The notes under the pieces: model-generated
What the model saw: the letters and a program-made list of their open reading frames with translations, nothing else
The model's database searches: none
Told to the model about the DNA's origin: nothing
Translations under genes and position numbers: made by a program
Shown: one piece after another, positions 18,841 to 30,003 of the stretch
How positions within the stretch are numbered: the first letter of the stretch is position 1
Layout: every line of letters starts with the position of its first letter
Assembly: GCA_016208495.1 (NCBI GenBank)
Contig: JACQXX010000163.1
Coordinates: 1-32,544, forward strand
Reading direction: 5' to 3'
DNA length: 32,544 nucleotides
DNA from: Acidobacteriota bacterium
Lineage (GTDB): Bacteria > Acidobacteriota > Blastocatellia > Chloracidobacteriales > Chloracidobacteriaceae

Positions 18841-19329
18841 ATGAGCACCGTTCAACTTCGCATCAAGATTGATCCAGCCCTGGCGCTTCCACTGTGGAAA
18901 CAGGTGGAGCAGGGATTCCGCACCTTGATTTTGGATGGGGTGCTCCAGTCGGAGTCAATCCTTCCAGGTTCGGCAGAACTGGCCAAACAGCTTGGAATCA
19001 ACCCGGCAGCAACCGCAAAAGCCTATCATAACTTGCTCGCTGCCGGTCTCCTGGAAAATCGGAGGTGGGGCGAAGTGACCGTGGTGGATTTTCAACAACT
19101 CCCGCTTTCAGACCATCGCCAGTTGCTGTTACGCGAAGGCGCCCGCGAGTTTGCCGTTGTTGCCTATCGCGAAAATTGCTCAGAAGCCGAAACCATCGCC
19201 TGTTTGAATGAAGAATTGAGAATGAAGGATGAAGAAAAACGCACCTTGATTGCGGCCAATGATTTTCTTCGCCCCTTTGAGCCAGTGAACAACCGGACCA
19301 AACACCATATCGAAAACCCTGAACCCTGA
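18841..19329 (+). CDS. GntR-family (YtrA-type) transcriptional regulator
   Basis: 162 aa from the ATG at 18841; a TTG at 18835 is also in frame. The N-terminal winged helix has the YtrA-like opening (IDPALALPLWKQVEQGFRTLI) and the helix-turn-helix block ELAKQLGINPAATAKAYHNLLAAGLL. The part matching the wing (RRWGEVTVV) departs from the usual GEGTFV, so DNA binding may be altered. The short helical C-terminal region is typical of YtrA regulators, which control adjacent ABC transporters. The TGA stop is inside a CCCTGAA heptad array. A direct paralogue follows 83 bases downstream. Confidence 0.85.
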   Translation: MSTVQLRIKIDPALALPLWKQVEQGFRTLILDGVLQSESILPGSAELAKQLGINPAATAKAYHNLLAAGLLENRRWGEVTVVDFQQLPLSDHRQLLLREGAREFAVVAYRENCSEAETIACLNEELRMKDEEKRTLIAANDFLRPFEPVNNRTKHHIENPEP

Positions 19330-19408
19330 ACCCCAGTTGCAGACCGTAAACAACCTGCCTCAATTCAACCACCGCTCCGCGGCGAAAACCCTGAACCCTG
19401 AACCCTAA
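19317..19408 (+). repeat. Two short CCCTGAA heptad arrays
   Basis: CCCTGAA units at 19317-19323 and 19324-19330, and again at 19389-19395 and 19396-19402 followed by CCCTAA. The first array contains the stop codon of the upstream regulator (19327-19329). The second fills the position where a Shine-Dalgarno site of the next gene (ATG 19413) would be expected. Between them lies unremarkable DNA. Confidence 0.8.
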
Positions 19409-19412
19409 TCCC

Positions 19413-19868
19413 ATGATTCAAACCATCCACATTGATCCAACCAATGCCACCCCAATCTGGAAGCAGATCGAAGAAAACGTTCGTCATCTGGTCGCTTCCG
19501 AAATTTTGCTGCCTGGGATGCCGATGCCATCAGTTCGGGATCTCTCGAAGGAACTGCGGGTGAATCCGGCGACGGTGGCCAAAGCCTATCAGCGGTTGAC
19601 TGATGCCGGTGTCCTGATGGTCAAACGCGGTGAAGGCACGTTTGTCTCTGAATCACCACCCGTGATGCCAGACGAAAAGCGCAAAGATGTACTGCGCGAG
19701 AGTGCCCGGCGCTATGCGGCGATTGCCGCCACGATTGGCGCCACCCAGGAAGAAGCCATTGACGAACTCAAAAACGCCATGGCGCACACCCGCCTCCGCC
19801 AAAACGAACCTGATCAGGAACCCGAAGATCCAGCCTGGAGAGAATATGGAGCCCATCGCAACCTTTAA
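19413..19868 (+). CDS. GntR-family (YtrA-type) transcriptional regulator
   Basis: 151 aa. The winged helix is well conserved: IDPTNATPIWKQIEENVRHLVAS, then the helix-turn-helix PSVRDLSKELRVNPATVAKAYQRLTDAGVL and the wing KRGEGTFV. The C-terminal tail is short and helical as in YtrA. The gene overlaps the ABC ATPase gene by 23 bases, so the two are translationally coupled. That makes this the most likely direct regulator of the transporter, responding to an unknown ligand, often a cell-envelope antibiotic in this family. The heptad array just upstream leaves no obvious Shine-Dalgarno site. Confidence 0.9.
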   Translation: MIQTIHIDPTNATPIWKQIEENVRHLVASEILLPGMPMPSVRDLSKELRVNPATVAKAYQRLTDAGVLMVKRGEGTFVSESPPVMPDEKRKDVLRESARRYAAIAATIGATQEEAIDELKNAMAHTRLRQNEPDQEPEDPAWREYGAHRNL

Positions 19869-20760
19869 GCATGTGACCATGAAATATGGGTCCAAAGTCG
19901 CCTTGAACGACGTCAGTTTTGAGATCCCACGCGGCGCCGTCTATGCCTTGCTTGGGCGCAACGGCATGGGCAAATCGTCAGCCATTAAATGTATGCTCGG
20001 TCATCAAAAGCAAACCCAGGGGCAGATTTCTGTCTTTGGTATGGATAGCTGGAAACAACGCACCCGGATTTTGGAACGGGTCGGCGTCGTTCCTGAAGAG
20101 CCGGACGCCCCACCCGATATGACCCCGCTCCAACTGGCCAGGTTTTGTGCCGAACTCTATCCGACCTGGGACACAGCCGGCGTCGAAGCACGCTTTGCCA
20201 GATTTAAAATTGCCCCCAAAGCCCGCTTTAAGGATTTGTCCAAGGGCCAAAAAGCGCAGGTGATGATGTCGCTGGCGCTTGGGTCGCAACCGGAATTGAT
20301 GGTGCTTGACGATCCGACTCTGGGGCTGGATGTGGTCGCCCGCAAGGAGTTTTTTGAAGAACTGATTTCCGAACTGGCTGACCGGGGGATCACGGTGTTG
20401 ATCACGACCCACGATCTGGCTGGGATTGAACCGCTGGCCGATCACATCGGCATTTTGAAAGACGGGCGGCTGGCCATCAATGACACTGTCGAAAACCTGA
20501 AAGCCCGCTTCCGGCGCATTCACTGCACCCACCAGACGTCGCTGGCTGCCAATGGGTTGAGCGATGCGCTCGAACCGCTCCAATTGATTCGAACCAAACG
20601 CTTTGGCTGGGGCATGGAAGCCATTGTCGCCAAATTTGACCGTGCTGTGCTCGAACGCTTTTACCATTCCCAACTGACGCTCGTGCCCGAAGTCGTCCCC
20701 ATGACGCTGGAAGAAATCTTTGCCGCCGTGGTCGAAACCGAAGAAGGAGTTGCCCAATGA
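19846..20760 (+). CDS. ABC transporter ATP-binding protein (YtrB-like)
   Basis: 304 aa. The start ATG at 19846 has GGAG close upstream and lies inside the end of the regulator gene. Walker A is GRNGMGKS (37-44), the signature is LSKGQ (131-135), Walker B is LMVLDDP (151-157), and the H-loop His is at 189. The residue after the Walker B Asp is Asp156 instead of the usual Glu, a known variation in this subgroup that may slow hydrolysis. The protein supplies energy at the cytoplasmic face for the two permeases encoded next. Its stop overlaps the first permease start (ATGA at 20757-20760). Confidence 0.93.
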   Translation: MEPIATFKHVTMKYGSKVALNDVSFEIPRGAVYALLGRNGMGKSSAIKCMLGHQKQTQGQISVFGMDSWKQRTRILERVGVVPEEPDAPPDMTPLQLARFCAELYPTWDTAGVEARFARFKIAPKARFKDLSKGQKAQVMMSLALGSQPELMVLDDPTLGLDVVARKEFFEELISELADRGITVLITTHDLAGIEPLADHIGILKDGRLAINDTVENLKARFRRIHCTHQTSLAANGLSDALEPLQLIRTKRFGWGMEAIVAKFDRAVLERFYHSQLTLVPEVVPMTLEEIFAAVVETEEGVAQ

Positions 20761-22880
20761 AATACTTGAAAATGATCTATGCTGTTGCTCGCCGTGAAGT
20801 GATTGAACGCCGCACTATTTTTGCCCTGGCCCTGGTAGTCGGGCTGATGGCAATATCCTGGCCATTTGTGTTTGGATTTTTGAATGCCGAAAACTTAAGT
20901 TCGACCTGGCCTGACATGAGCGCTGTGAGTGGGTTGTTTCTGGGATTGTTCCTTAGTTTTGGGGTTGCATTTCTCAGCGGGGTTGGCCTGTTTGGTCGGG
21001 ATCTGTCTGAAAAACGCATTGGGTTTTATTTTTCCCGCCCGATCCCGGCATTGGCTCTATGGACCGGCAAAATACTGGCCGGGTGGACGCTGATTATTGG
21101 ATCATTTTTGGTAACACTGACGCCAACTTTTCTGGTCGGCGCCAATCCGCTCAAAGGTCTTTTGGAATTGTCCAATAATGGTCAAGGCATTCTATTACTT
21201 CTGCTTCCCTTGTTGCTGTTTGGGATTGGACTGATGGCCAGCATTGCGTTTCGTTCCCGTTCACGCTGGCTTGTTTTTGACCTGGTGGCAATTCCTCTCC
21301 TTCTGTTGCTATTGAGTGCCGGCCTGTTTCCGCTCTATCGAGTGTATGCTGAAGACTTAATGTTCAAGGCGCTGATTGGTTTTGGGTTAATTGCCGGAAT
21401 CGGAATGCTCCTGGCTTCGGCGATCAGTACGATCCAGGGTCGAACCAGTTTGATTCAGACGCACCGGGTGATTTCACTCGCGCTCTGTACTGTGTTGTTG
21501 ATTGGTGCCGGTTCAGTACAGGTCTATGCCCGATGGGCCCTGGCAGTCACTCCAGCCGATATCGAGTCGGTTATCTTTGGGCTTGTTATTCATCCAAACT
21601 GGGTTTTGGTGGGCGGCACTATTTCCAATCGTGAGCGATATTACCCAACTTTTCTCTATAACATTCCAACTGGCCAGATGACATCACTGGAAATTGGGCA
21701 GTATGATTTACCAACGATTGCCTGTTCGAAAGATGGTCAGCGTTGTGCCTGGATTGCCCCATCCCGAAAGCTTCCAATGTTTTCGGGCTCACAGCCAGAA
21801 ACGGGAATGCTCACGATTCTTGATTCCACCACCAAAACCGTGAATCAGAAAATCCAATCGAACCTGGAGTTTTCAATTGGAACCAATCTCGTTTTCTCTC
21901 CAGATGGAAAATGGCTGGTGGCTGCCAGTCAGGAACGGGTTGAGTTCATTGATTTTCAAACTCGACGGATTACCAATCAGTTGACCGTTCCGTTTGAACT
22001 CCAAAAAGAAGGGTTTCTTCAAGTTAATAAAGCCATCTTTGTTTCACCTGAGGTTTTGCGGCTCTACCGGGCACACCCGAAAAAACAAGGGCATCAGATC
22101 CTGGAATTTAACCTCACCACTCGTGAATTCAAGGAAACCGGATTTCTGCTCAAAGATCTGCCTCAGGAAGTAAGCCTGCTCAATAGTTCATCAGTGAATG
22201 GGTTTGCCCGGTTCCCCCGGTTTTGTGACTCAATTGATCGTGCCTTTATTTCACTGCCAGCTCAACCCAACCCAGAATCCCCAGTATCGGTCGTTTCCAG
22301 CTCTTACAAAAATAAGTCTGAGGAAATTTATGCCACTCGGGTTTTTGACTCCCGAACGGGTCAGCATTTGTTTTCCTTACCTGCGGTGGATACTAATTTC
22401 TATGGGGTTTCAGCGCTGGCACTCTCTGACAAACGGACGGTGCAACTGGTTTGGAAAAAAGGGGTCATCCCAGTTACCCCGGAAGTTCCAACCGCGTTCC
22501 TGCAAGTCTTTTCAGCAGACGGCATCCTTGAGCGAACAATTTCGTTGGAAAAGGTGAATGAATTTCAAGGCCATTCCAGCTATGAGATTCATGGCGAAAC
22601 ATCAAGCGGAAAAGTACTTTTGCTTTCAACGACTAAAAGCCCTCAAAAACAGGACCTCACAAAGTTTTCCGTCATTGACTGTACCACTGGGGAAATTCAG
22701 GAGAAATCACGCTCTCACTCAAGTTTTCAGGGAATGATCTGGTGGTATCTCAAAGGCTCGGCAGAGGAGAACGAAACCAGGCTTTTTCTTGAACGACCAG
22801 GTCGAGGAAAACCGAAATCGCTGATTTATTTCAACCCGGAAACAGGCGAAAAGCGAACACTGATTGGCGCGAAAAACTGA
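20757..22880 (+). CDS. ABC-2 type permease with large C-terminal propeller-like domain
   Basis: 707 aa. The first 260 residues contain about seven membrane helices (around 16-40, 55-85, 100-128, 142-165, 169-195, 201-225, 236-260). The conserved ABC-2 element GLFGRDLSEKRIGFYFSRP lies after the second. With the N-terminus inside, seven helices place the remaining 440 residues outside the membrane. That part is soluble and beta-rich, with propeller-like repeats such as LVFSPDGKWLVAASQERVEFIDFQTRRI. Permease and domain are one uninterrupted frame. It is translationally coupled to the ATPase and 97 bases upstream of a paralogue. The likely role is export or envelope sensing; the substrate is unknown. 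Confidence 0.85.
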   Translation: MKYLKMIYAVARREVIERRTIFALALVVGLMAISWPFVFGFLNAENLSSTWPDMSAVSGLFLGLFLSFGVAFLSGVGLFGRDLSEKRIGFYFSRPIPALALWTGKILAGWTLIIGSFLVTLTPTFLVGANPLKGLLELSNNGQGILLLLLPLLLFGIGLMASIAFRSRSRWLVFDLVAIPLLLLLLSAGLFPLYRVYAEDLMFKALIGFGLIAGIGMLLASAISTIQGRTSLIQTHRVISLALCTVLLIGAGSVQVYARWALAVTPADIESVIFGLVIHPNWVLVGGTISNRERYYPTFLYNIPTGQMTSLEIGQYDLPTIACSKDGQRCAWIAPSRKLPMFSGSQPETGMLTILDSTTKTVNQKIQSNLEFSIGTNLVFSPDGKWLVAASQERVEFIDFQTRRITNQLTVPFELQKEGFLQVNKAIFVSPEVLRLYRAHPKKQGHQILEFNLTTREFKETGFLLKDLPQEVSLLNSSSVNGFARFPRFCDSIDRAFISLPAQPNPESPVSVVSSSYKNKSEEIYATRVFDSRTGQHLFSLPAVDTNFYGVSALALSDKRTVQLVWKKGVIPVTPEVPTAFLQVFSADGILERTISLEKVNEFQGHSSYEIHGETSSGKVLLLSTTKSPQKQDLTKFSVIDCTTGEIQEKSRSHSSFQGMIWWYLKGSAEENETRLFLERPGRGKPKSLIYFNPETGEKRTLIGAKN

Positions 22881-22977: not shown

Positions 22978-25128
22978 ATGAAGCACGTGAAAATTATCCT
23001 CACTCTGGCCAATCGGCAACTGGTTGAGAATCGCGCCATCTTTGCACTGGCATTGATCTGTGGGCTGGCCACGCTGGCGCTTCCGTTTGTGATTGGGACT
23101 TCAACTAAAGCACCCGATCAAAGGGAATTTCTGGAGAATATTCGGGCTGGGGCCCAGTTGCTGGGAATGGTGGTGAGTTATGGCGTCGCCTTTTACACCG
23201 GGCTTTCCCTGTTTGGCCGTGAGCTTTCTGAAAAGCGAATGGGATTTTTCTTCTCACGTCCGATTTCAGCCACTGCACTCTGGATTGGGAAACTGCTTGG
23301 CGCGTGGCTGCTGATTGTCGGTTCGCTGTTGCTGGTGTGTTTGCCTGCAATCCTGATGGATGCCAATCCTTTTCTTCTGCGGGAAAAAGTTGGCTGGCCG
23401 GTGCTCACGTTCGGGGCAGGAGTACTGCCCTTCTTGTTTTGTCTGGGACTGACCACGAGCATTGCTTTCCGGTCGAAATCCTGGTGGCTGACAGTTGATC
23501 TGGTGTCTCTGATGATAACAACTCTGCTGGTCGGGCTCGGAGCTGACCGGTTAGTGCAGGAAGGCGCTCTACTGCCACTCATTTTTGGCGGTCTGTTTTT
23601 TTTCGTTGTGGCCATGACCGGCATGCTGGTGGCTTCCCGAATCAGCCTTGGCCAGGGCCGAACCAGCCTGCGGTCGGTGCATCGGGTGATGTCGCTGTGC
23701 CTCTGGTCAATTGTATTTCTCGGAGTCGGTCTCTTTGACGGCTACACCCGCTGGGTCATCAGTGTGACCCCAGATGATTTCACCCAACTCCGCAATGTCA
23801 GCCCGATTTCAAACGGCTGGTTTCTGATTGATGGACAGGTCCGCTACCGGCCCGATTATGTGCCAAAGCTATTACACAATCCGCTCACGGGTCAGTTCGT
23901 CAGGGTCGGGGATCTCGACACAGAGTACTCTTTCCCATCGGTTTCACCCAATGGTCAATATGCCACGTGGGTTCACATCCCCCGGTACCGAAAGCCGGAA
24001 GACTCAGGTGGGCCATACTCTGGAAATCTGATTTTGTGTCGTCTGGAAGGAGCAACTCCCAAACCCCAAACCACCAGTCTGGTCTATCCATCAAACACAC
24101 ACTTTGAATTTTCTCCAGATGGTGCATCAGTCGCCGCCATTACCCCAGATCGAGTTGAATTGATTTCCCTCCAGTCTCATCGAATCATCAACCAGTTTTC
24201 CATCCCCGGTGAATTACAGAAAGAGGGTGAGATGTTTCTTCGCAAAGCGGTCTTTCCCTCACCTGAAATTCTGAGATTGTACCGGTCAGCATACCGAAGT
24301 GATCGTTGCCAGATGGTTGAGGTCAACCTGAACACCAAAGCAATAACCCAAACGGGATGGTTGGAAGAAATTGGATATGAAGAACAGCTTATCTATTGCC
24401 CGGTGACTGATCGAATTTCTTACTATTCGTCATTTTCTCAGGATGAATATCACATTGCAGATGGGCGAACCGGGAAACGGATTTTTTCACTTCGAACTGT
24501 TGACCAGGATTCTGGCCCAGAACCCTGGGTTGTTGTACTTTCAGATGGACGATATGCTCAGTTGATCCCTGAAGAGGTAAAAGTTCCCGCCACCGAACCA
24601 GTTCATCTTATTCCTTTTTGGCCGATAGATGGACTAAACTTTCTGGCAATGAAAAAGATACCGACTCCGAATCATAAAGGGCCTTATCAGATACCGGTTT
24701 ATACTTCCAATATCAGATTCAAACTCCTCACTTCAGATGGAAAAGAAGACCAATCCATTCTGTTAAAGCTTGATTCACTTCCATCAGCTTTCAATTCGCT
24801 CTATTTTTGTGGCGAAGTATCACCAGGAAAAGTACTGATGCTTATCAATTCATATGAATCGCTTGAAAAAACAGTTTCCCAATTGTTTTTGATAGATTCT
24901 GTTACTGGTGAAGTTAATCGGAAAACTATATTTAATGAAGCGCGACAAATAGCTCCGCTTGAGGGAAAAGAAGCCCTCATCACAGGCATTCCTGCCTCTG
25001 TGATGAGAGAGTATTTTTATCGAGATGAGTTTTCAGTTTCCCAAATTTCTTATTCTTATATTGACCCAGCCACCGCAAATCGCCGGCAACTTTATGTCCT
25101 CAACTCTTCCAGGTTTATTTACGACTGA
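22978..25128 (+). CDS. ABC-2 type permease with C-terminal propeller-like domain, paralogue
   Basis: 716 aa. It has the same architecture as the preceding gene: N-terminal membrane region with LFGRELSEKRMGFFFSRPISATALWIGKLLGAWLLIVGS, seven predicted helices to about residue 265, then a long soluble domain with FEFSPDGASVAAITPDRVELISLQSHRIINQFSIPGELQKEG. The paralogues match throughout, including DGxxVAAxxxxRVExIxxQxxRIxNQ, so the fusion predates the duplication. Together the two could form a heterodimeric channel with the single ATPase. GGAG lies 12 bases upstream of the ATG. The 3' end is somewhat AT-richer than the 5' end. Confidence 0.85.
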   Translation: MKHVKIILTLANRQLVENRAIFALALICGLATLALPFVIGTSTKAPDQREFLENIRAGAQLLGMVVSYGVAFYTGLSLFGRELSEKRMGFFFSRPISATALWIGKLLGAWLLIVGSLLLVCLPAILMDANPFLLREKVGWPVLTFGAGVLPFLFCLGLTTSIAFRSKSWWLTVDLVSLMITTLLVGLGADRLVQEGALLPLIFGGLFFFVVAMTGMLVASRISLGQGRTSLRSVHRVMSLCLWSIVFLGVGLFDGYTRWVISVTPDDFTQLRNVSPISNGWFLIDGQVRYRPDYVPKLLHNPLTGQFVRVGDLDTEYSFPSVSPNGQYATWVHIPRYRKPEDSGGPYSGNLILCRLEGATPKPQTTSLVYPSNTHFEFSPDGASVAAITPDRVELISLQSHRIINQFSIPGELQKEGEMFLRKAVFPSPEILRLYRSAYRSDRCQMVEVNLNTKAITQTGWLEEIGYEEQLIYCPVTDRISYYSSFSQDEYHIADGRTGKRIFSLRTVDQDSGPEPWVVVLSDGRYAQLIPEEVKVPATEPVHLIPFWPIDGLNFLAMKKIPTPNHKGPYQIPVYTSNIRFKLLTSDGKEDQSILLKLDSLPSAFNSLYFCGEVSPGKVLMLINSYESLEKTVSQLFLIDSVTGEVNRKTIFNEARQIAPLEGKEALITGIPASVMREYFYRDEFSVSQISYSYIDPATANRRQLYVLNSSRFIYD

Positions 25129-29365: not shown

Positions 29366-29971
29366 TTAACCCGAGGTATTCGATACGTCTTCCCCGGCGT
29401 AGCCTTGAGTTGCGAGTCGCACCCCAGATTGGGCGTAGGCTTCCGCCGGCATATCTTCCACCCCGGTGGCATCAATCCAGGTGTTGTAAAACTGAAACAG
29501 CGCACACACCGTGATCGCGTCGTAGATGGCTTCCTCTGACCAACCGGCGGCTTTCACCCGATCAATATCCGATTGATTGACCTGATTTGACCGCAACGTC
29601 ACCTTTTCAATCAGGCCGAAGAGTACTTTCTCAGCTTCTGACAGCGAAGAGGTCCAGTAATTTTCCAAAACTTGTTGAACTCGTGCGCGGTCCCCGAGCA
29701 CGGCTGCCGTGGCAGCGTGTGAGCCGACTCAGAAAGGGCACTGATTGAGCTTTGAAGTGAAGGCCGCGATCAGTTCGCGTTGTTCAATCGTGAGCGGCGA
29801 TGGTCCACGCATCACCGCCTGAGTAAACAGATTGAGGTACTTGTTGCGTTCCGGCTTAAACGCCAGCAAGTGCAAAATTTGTGGAATCGGAAGCCCGGCG
29901 GCCTTCAATTGCCGAAGGCCCTCACCAGCTTCTCCTGGTGGATGGTGATGCTCGATTTCCGAGAGAAACAT
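29366..29971 (-). CDS. AhpD-like (CMD family) peroxidase, predicted selenoprotein with in-frame UGA
   Basis: 201 residues if the TGA at 29731-29729 is read as selenocysteine. The part before it (80 residues from the ATG at 29971; GTG 29998 is an alternative start) and the part after it (120 residues) are in the same frame and together form a complete alkylhydroperoxidase/carboxymuconolactone-decarboxylase-like protein. The active site reads C78-P-F-U81-V-G-S-H85, with Glu66 fifteen residues before Sec. This matches the spacing of Glu118, Cys130, Cys133 and His137 in mycobacterial AhpD, so Sec takes the place of the peroxidatic Cys. The second half keeps the family pattern (KVTLRSNQVNQSDIDRVKAAG, ALFQFYNTWIDATGV). 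Expected role: cytoplasmic thiol- or selenol-dependent peroxide reduction. A simple nonsense mutation is the alternative. The TAA stop lies at the edge of a palindromic element. Confidence 0.82.
29683..29701 (-). promoter_or_regulatory. Candidate bacterial SECIS hairpin
   Basis: On the mRNA, GTGCTCGG (29701-29694) pairs with CCGCGCAC (29690-29683) except for one U/C mismatch, leaving the apical loop GGA. The loop starts 35 bases after the UGA and has G in its first two positions, within the relaxed bacterial SECIS rules as I remember them. A competing hairpin (CACGCTGCC with GGCAGCCGTG) lies closer to the UGA, so the assignment is tentative. Confidence 0.4.
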
Positions 29972-30003
29972 AAATTGTGAAGGTGTTCCTTTCAACACAA
30001 TGG

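Follow-up and report, generated by a model that had tools for sequence, protein, structure and literature searches.

A predicted AhpD-like selenoprotein of the TIGR01926 family with an unusual SECIS region in an Acidobacteriota genome

A reading frame interrupted by a single TGA

Does the TGA between two neighbouring minus-strand ORFs of an Acidobacteriota genome end a gene, or is it read as selenocysteine (Sec)? In the window, the whole stretch of 32,544 nt that was analysed, the mechanical ORF list gives these ORFs as 29729..29998 (89 aa) and 29366..29701 (111 aa). The initial annotation had taken them for one gene cut in two by ORF calling, with both parts in one frame and only this TGA between them, and the ORF list and the read-through translation agree with that description. 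From GTG 29998 to TAA 29366-29368 the sole in-frame stop is the TGA at 29731-29729, and the nine codons VGSHAATAA, said to continue smoothly past it, are followed by no further stop before the TAA. The translation runs ...KLNQCPF-U-VGSHAATAAVL..., with the TGA at the second Cys position of a CxxC motif; the joined protein around it reads ...EQRELIAAFTSKLNQCPF-U-VGSHAATAAVLGDRARV... Glu, Cys, UGA and His had been claimed to stand at AhpD spacings, and Glu75, Cys87, UGA90 and His94, numbered from GTG 29998, indeed have the spacings of the AhpD proton-relay residues described in PMC3141380.

The joined protein matched TIGR01926 ('peroxidase-related enzyme') with 99.6 bits against a cut-off of 81.8 (E 1.7e-28) over residues 38-177, across the TGA, and Pfam CMD with 33.4 bits against a cut-off of 23. 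Since the TIGR01926 match spans the TGA and homologues have TGA at the same codon, the joined frame is not a product of chance. ATG 29971, residue 10 of the GTG frame, is the likely start because the homologue alignment begins there, and would yield a protein of 201 aa (Table 1).

Table 1. Positions of the predicted selenoprotein gene, its active-site codons, the hairpins downstream of the UGA and the second Sec candidate of the same genome
Feature	Position	Strand	Basis or remark
Predicted selenoprotein CDS, AhpD-like / peroxidase-related enzyme	29366..29971	(-)	201 aa + TAA, one TGA read through; TIGR01926 99.6 bits
Predicted Sec-encoding TGA, residue 81 from ATG / 90 from GTG 29998	29729..29731	(-)	TGA in 38/42 relatives >130 bits
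Cys of the CxxU redox pair	29738..29740	(-)	Frame translation, homologue alignment
His of C-x-x-U-x-x-x-H, AhpD His137 equivalent by spacing	29717..29719	(-)	AhpD residues, PMC3141380
Glu of the putative proton relay, AhpD Glu118 equivalent by spacing	29774..29776	(-)	AhpD residues, PMC3141380
Homologous hairpin, GCUGC-CACG-GCAGC, loop 17 nt after UGA, U-A pair in stem	29703..29716	(-)	Alignment with relatives
Second hairpin, GGA loop 35 nt after UGA, 8 bp, -11.5 kcal/mol	29682..29702	(-)	Agrees with bacterial SECIS rules
Second Sec candidate	L135 1606-1608; contig C161, match 19190-19531		Own genome; WASW-U-GPC, long N-terminal region TPR-like by eye

Predicted fold and chemistry of the product

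A structure model (mean pLDDT 70.4, from a four-row alignment) served for fold assignment only. Both by sequence (best 6.5e-18) and by fold, the nearest solved relatives were D. radiodurans 6k40, 2pfx, 2prr, 2oyo and 3c1l, while weaker fold matches were obtained with M. tuberculosis AhpD (1lw1, E 0.11) and the PA0269 entry 2ijc (E 1.4e-3). As modelled, the protein has an all-helical AhpD fold and belongs to the peroxidase-related enzymes of TIGR01926, with Sec predicted in place of the second Cys of CxxC. The 'peroxidatic' role of this second-Cys/U position we infer from AhpD. By the same analogy, a Glu/His relay would deprotonate the selenol, which would attack a small molecule, either a peroxide or some other oxidised or halogenated compound; the upstream Cys would resolve the intermediate as a selenenylsulfide, and a cellular dithiol would then reduce it.

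Given the same Sec decoding, the chemistry could be a different one, namely that of a thiol-dependent reductive dehalogenase like Bmp8 or of a mere electron adaptor for AhpC. Next after the peroxidase-related entries the model matches the debrominase Bmp8 (6ohi, E 3.2e-4), and an adaptor role towards AhpC has been described for AhpD (PMC3141380). Among the sequence and fold matches, however, the best ones (6k40, 2pfx, 2prr, 2oyo, 3c1l) bear peroxidase-related, AhpD or antioxidant-defence names, which prove no activity by themselves, and we regard the other chemistry as rather unlikely, if well within the range to be reckoned with.

Conservation of the TGA among relatives

Peptide patterns run against public genomes retrieved three relatives with TGA at this codon, at 56-62% identity, from two Gemmatimonadota-titled metagenome-assembled genomes (MAGs) and one Chloroflexi-titled MAG. 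No tRNA-Sec was found in the Chloroflexi-titled MAG, and its contig may therefore be misbinned. A copy on a plasmid of Gemmatirosa kalamazoonensis likewise has TGA at the same codon; this CPFU gene (L024 3001-3609) lies on plasmid 2 of strain KBS708 and comes from a plasmid-collection record without annotation.

A profile built from these five sequences, the window's among them, matched 59 of 396 genomes of the window's phylum at 1e-20 and five of 162 genomes of its class at 1e-40; at the latter threshold the 9 other genomes listed for its family gave no copy. Genomes of 3.7 Mb in two contigs and genomes of 8.3 Mb both occur in that family. In the phylum of the first Gemmatimonadota MAG, 25 of 298 genomes matched at 1e-40, with one TGA in all 26 matches. 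Among the 42 non-identical relatives above 130 bits, window gene included, the column opposite the UGA, for which a homologue alignment had been advised, is TGA in 38 and TGC in 4. Below 130 bits there were 34 sequences with TGA and 26 with TGC or TGT, a figure that undercounts Cys: in the search of the window's phylum the TGA-bearing matches were fetched, whereas about 30 Cys matches, some of which lie in flanks, received no separate locus and were left unfetched. In total 102 sequences were kept after merging identical domains, leaving out domains below 60 bits and dropping two rows without C..[CU]...H (second copies in L039 and L050, both Cys-type). In every TGA row of this set, TGA encodes the second residue of C-x-x-[CU].

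The tree of these sequences was built without the Sec/Cys column and is of the 'quick' kind, unrooted and supported by SH-aLRT only; it leaves 38 of its 99 inner branches open, and long branches were flagged in it. On it, the Sec/Cys label needs 3 changes, compared to an average of 26 for shuffled labels. While the 42 relatives above 130 bits form a group by score, 36 of them fall into one clade, that of the window gene, with 32 Sec and 4 Cys rows and motifs such as CPFU, CLFU and CDFU. Two further Sec groups, a CxYU clade with 32 rows and a third group with 8, are separate from it, with Cys clades in between. Six CVFU rows (L109-L114) belong to another Sec group on the tree together with L055 and L088. 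The four Cys members of the window's clade carry the motif CEFC and are nested within it, as expected if Sec was lost there; counting changes without a root gives no proof of this direction.

The distant TIGR01926 proteins with TGA (L055-L088; 34 rows below 130 bits, same phylum) are mostly CxYU, and many of them have another hairpin, e.g. CACGCAGAGTTTCTGCGT.

A hairpin shared by the Sec relatives and its aberrant form in the window

Bacterial Sec insertion elements (bSECIS) are defined in PMC13188914 by a loop 16-37 nt from the UGA, a G in the first two loop positions and a minimum free energy of at most -7.5. Five base pairs, joining nt 13-17 with 22-26 after the UGA around a 4-nt loop, form in 38/38 Sec members above 130 bits. 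All five form in 0/4 Cys members above 130 bits and in 0/24 Cys homologues of 80-130 bits, counts that cover the 28 of 30 Cys rows above 80 bits. When the stem was slid by whole codons, five pairs were obtained in 0 to 2 of 38. Unguided RNAalifold returned the same stem and kept double-sided changes at three of the five pairs. Once the stem is extended by its next outer pair, 98.1% of cells are paired and 0/500 shuffles reach the observed covariation, in a kind of shuffle test that kinship inflates.

In most members the conserved Ala-Ala-x-Ala-Ala motif alone accounts for all but one of the five pairs, which leaves the pair between the wobble positions of the first and third Ala as the informative one. 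This middle pair is C-G in 33, U-A in 2 and U-G, G-U and A-U in one each, and thus paired in 38/38, while two Ala wobble letters drawn at random from the same gene are expected to pair in 41% of cases. The hairpin codons are GCC, GCG, GTC and GCG at four positions in 32, 35, 33 and 34 of 38; elsewhere in the same genes GTG is commoner than GTC for Val (176 vs 143). Such frozen synonymous sites are what an RNA element would cause. The loop of the 37 members other than the window gene is GGUC (33), GGGC (2) or AGUU (2), always with G at loop position 2. Under the published rules, 37/38 near Sec genes (window included) and 33/34 distant Sec genes pass, compared to 7/28 Cys homologues.

Although the window's copy keeps the stem, its loop CACG is without the usual G, and the homologous hairpin fails the loop rule of PMC13188914. 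The copy passes the rules only via a hairpin that is not common to the relatives, and 194 of 1478 window TGAs (13%) pass by chance. The single-sequence fold of its SECIS region is no more stable than shuffles (z -0.19); such folds are uninformative for the five sequences so treated (z -1.47 to 0.53), the signal residing in the alignment only. Beside the old stem one codon is missing, and the stem codons are recoded. The second hairpin may be the working SECIS of the window's copy. A possible, still doubtful account is SECIS turnover, in which the lineage would have lost the loop guanosine while retaining the protein, with Sec decoding shifted to the GGA hairpin 35 nt downstream.

The same oddity could mean that the family is one of selenoproteins but the window's copy is losing Sec decoding, with the key loop G gone, poor read-through and the gene on its way out. 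Besides the loop, which deviates from the GGUC, AGUU or GGGC of the 37 others, the fold z-score and the absence of a 1e-40 match in the 9 listed genomes of the family are consistent with such a loss. Against it, the stem contains a compensated U-A pair, the second hairpin conforms to the rules published in PMC13188914, and amino-acid change downstream of the TGA is not in excess. We consider this loss improbable. In the reading that we prefer, of an intact gene, an RNA hairpin just downstream of the UGA would steer Sec insertion, and either of the two may be the one used.

Conservation of the protein before and after the TGA

Compared with 30 Sec relatives, the mean amino-acid identity is 0.527 upstream of the TGA and 0.541 downstream, where the comparison omits the first 13 columns after the TGA. 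Near-invariant columns are kept at 14/15 on each side, and in both parts it is the third codon positions that change most. No dN/dS is claimed, as NG86 dS was undefined in 8/12 comparisons. Since the protein is alike conserved on both sides and shows no excess of downstream change, there is no visible decay. Close relatives with Cys together with decay of the gene had been named beforehand as an outcome that would speak against Sec; instead TGA outnumbers Cys, and the protein past the TGA shows no decay.

These data bear on the possibility that the TGA is a true stop, brought about by a nonsense mutation, a sequencing error or the birth of a pseudogene, and that the gene is split. The two entries of the mechanical ORF list and the aberrant loop of the homologous SECIS would fit such an event, which is nevertheless very improbable given the same TGA in 38/42 relatives above 130 bits, the equal conservation of the two halves and the complete Sec machinery of the own genome described below.

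Selenocysteine machinery of the own genome

The assembly that contains the window (8.38 Mb, 177 contigs, 99.16% complete) was searched for the Sec genes whose absence, according to the initial annotation, would have counted against Sec. ARAGORN detected a tRNA-Sec with anticodon UCA, which scored 63.1 bits with Rfam RF01852 (gathering score 47), while the candidates that stayed under this score were Ser, Leu, Gly, Tyr or Arg tRNAs or none. SelB (a 655-aa frame; 370.3 bits vs 242.25), SelA (555.5 vs 267.9) and SelD (398 vs 125) were all found, and none has an in-frame stop. By gene content, the own genome is able to insert selenocysteine, and SelB with tRNA-Sec(UCA) would deliver Sec to the ribosome at the UGA.

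A second Sec candidate of this genome has a TlpA-like / AhpC-TSA domain with the motif WASW-U-GPC and is the only one with TGA among 21 AhpC/TSA matches; its SECIS, whose GUU loop lies 17 nt past the UGA, obeys the published rules. TGA was absent from all 7 molybdopterin oxidoreductase matches and from the 3 other TIGR01926 paralogues of the genome; two distant paralogues have CxxC at the position of the window's TGA. A scan for TGA in redox-like motifs across the window and 15 own-genome loci gave many chance-looking matches beside the known one. That UGA is a sense codon here (e.g. Trp), or is read by a non-Sec system, is barely conceivable: the in-frame TGA is evidently translated in the family, but SelA, SelB and SelD have no in-frame stop, TGA occurs in just one of the 21 AhpC/TSA matches (in the UGPC redox motif) and in 0/7 molybdopterin matches, and the codon is TGA, TGC or TGT only in the 102 homologues, rows picked by C..[CU]...H with two lacking the motif dropped.

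Co-occurrence with tRNA-Sec was then compared between genomes with and without the TGA form. In the own phylum, tRNA-Sec of at least 60 bits was present in 35/39 matched genomes with the TGA form vs 1/20 without (Fisher p 1e-10, kinship not corrected, and the 60-bit line set after seeing the scores). This line corresponds to the gap between 54 and 60 bits, matches of 46-54 bits being taken as other tRNAs, like the low-scoring candidates of the own genome, and the searches in both phyla used Infernal's stricter filters. The own-phylum exceptions with TGA are G253 (97% complete), G234 (96%), G026 (95%) and G266 (72%); G396, G398, G769 and G620 carry the TGA form too, yet the first three gave no tRNA-Sec reaching 60 bits and G620 one of only 54.0. 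Three CEFC genomes of the window's clade (G217, G359, G370) yielded no match to tRNA-Sec at 1e-7; in the fourth, G075, a tRNA-Sec (75.8 bits) occurs together with a CHYU paralogue whose match continues across further stops. Among Gemmatimonadota genomes, 22/25 with the gene and 12/20 without have a tRNA-Sec at or above 60 bits, and the test says little there because so many genomes without the gene also have it.

Altogether, we are highly confident, arguing from sequence, that this is an intact selenoprotein gene whose UGA at 29731-29729 is read as Sec, insertion in the window's own copy being inferred. The earlier proposal that this UGA encodes Sec thus gains support from the machinery, from the ratio of 38 TGA to 4 TGC among the 42 relatives and from the lack of decay past the TGA.

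Gene neighbourhood and significance

The gene is preceded on its strand by two proteins, one matching FG-GAP and carboxypeptidase-regulatory-like entries and one with a bacterial Ig domain, and is followed by a glutamine synthetase. Six window ORFs between 20757 and 32425 were scanned; they comprise glutamine synthetase, FG-GAP, Ig-like and FecR domains and two ORFs without match, and none of them is an AhpC. At 20757-22880 and 22978-25128 (+), two adjoining proteins of 707 and 716 aa have no Pfam match at 1e-4.

Neighbours were surveyed at 41 loci of relatives above 130 bits (L108 left out), with names judged by eye from the sequences. The largest recurring cluster is a TonB-receptor-like protein upstream at 9/41 loci (L091, L094, L095, L109-L114), followed by an FG-GAP-like protein downstream at 8/41 (L017, L027, L109-L114). 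We propose no functional partner from the conserved neighbours. In L109-L114, a small ORF, CMD/AhpD-like by eye and without CxxC, lies immediately upstream of the CVFU gene, from about 460 bases before it up to its start; it is perhaps a partner subunit.

A standard ORF search cuts the gene in two, so that an enzyme of this kind can be missed or shown as fragments. The collected set constitutes a natural experiment: one enzyme occurs in a Sec and a Cys form among related genomes, some with tRNA-Sec and others lacking it, and every Sec form keeps an RNA hairpin that no Cys form keeps whole. With the window's copy one could test to what extent a bacterial SECIS drifts or changes place, and its SECIS oddity is the part that may interest specialists.

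Comparison with known selenoproteins and AhpD-like enzymes

Replacement of Cys by Sec in AhpD-like CxxC proteins had been mentioned as already reported, and the literature bears this out. AhpD-like CxxU selenoproteins (27 sequences) are listed in the Sargasso Sea selenoproteome of 2005 (PMC1088965), AhpD-like selenoproteins were counted in bacterial genomes in 2006 (PMC1794560) and named again in a 2022 review (PMC9312934), and TIGR01926 AhpD-like selenoproteins appear in Table 1 of a 2026 catalogue of 119 families and subfamilies (PMC13188914). Because it agrees with the published TIGR01926 CxxU definition as far as this is testable, the window protein is a further member of this known family and not categorically new. 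What is particular to it is the 'CPFU' group with its own SECIS, together with the odd hairpin of the window's copy. A separate description of the CPFU group was not found in the literature searched, which covered few subscription journals.

With the TIGR01926 / COG2128 CxxU selenoproteins the window protein shares the NCBIfam subfamily, scoring above its cut-off, Sec as the second residue of the redox pair and a hairpin directly downstream; as points of difference, it belongs on the quick tree to a CPFU-type clade apart from the CxYU clade and has another SECIS sequence. NF041238 (AhpD_rel_CFYUT) likewise has an AhpD core with C-x-x-U, but its model has 357 positions and the window protein, at 46.1 bits, is below the equivalog cut-off of 175 and not a member. 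NF053654, the YciW-related (seleno)proteins, shares the AhpD-type core and the possibility of Sec, yet the window protein stays far under its cut-off (22.8 vs 310 bits) and is not a member either. A scan of eight further family members (seven with Sec, one with Cys; some as partial sequences) gave none that either model claims.

Like M. tuberculosis AhpD and P. aeruginosa PA0269, the window protein has an active site of Glu, CxxC and His positions at the same spacings (PMC3141380); Cys is found there where the window gene has the predicted Sec codon, and the AhpD fold match is weak. The closest solved relatives by sequence and fold remain 6k40, 2pfx, 2prr, 2oyo and 3c1l, and in 6k40 and 2pfx, the two that were aligned, a Cys stands opposite the window's TGA.
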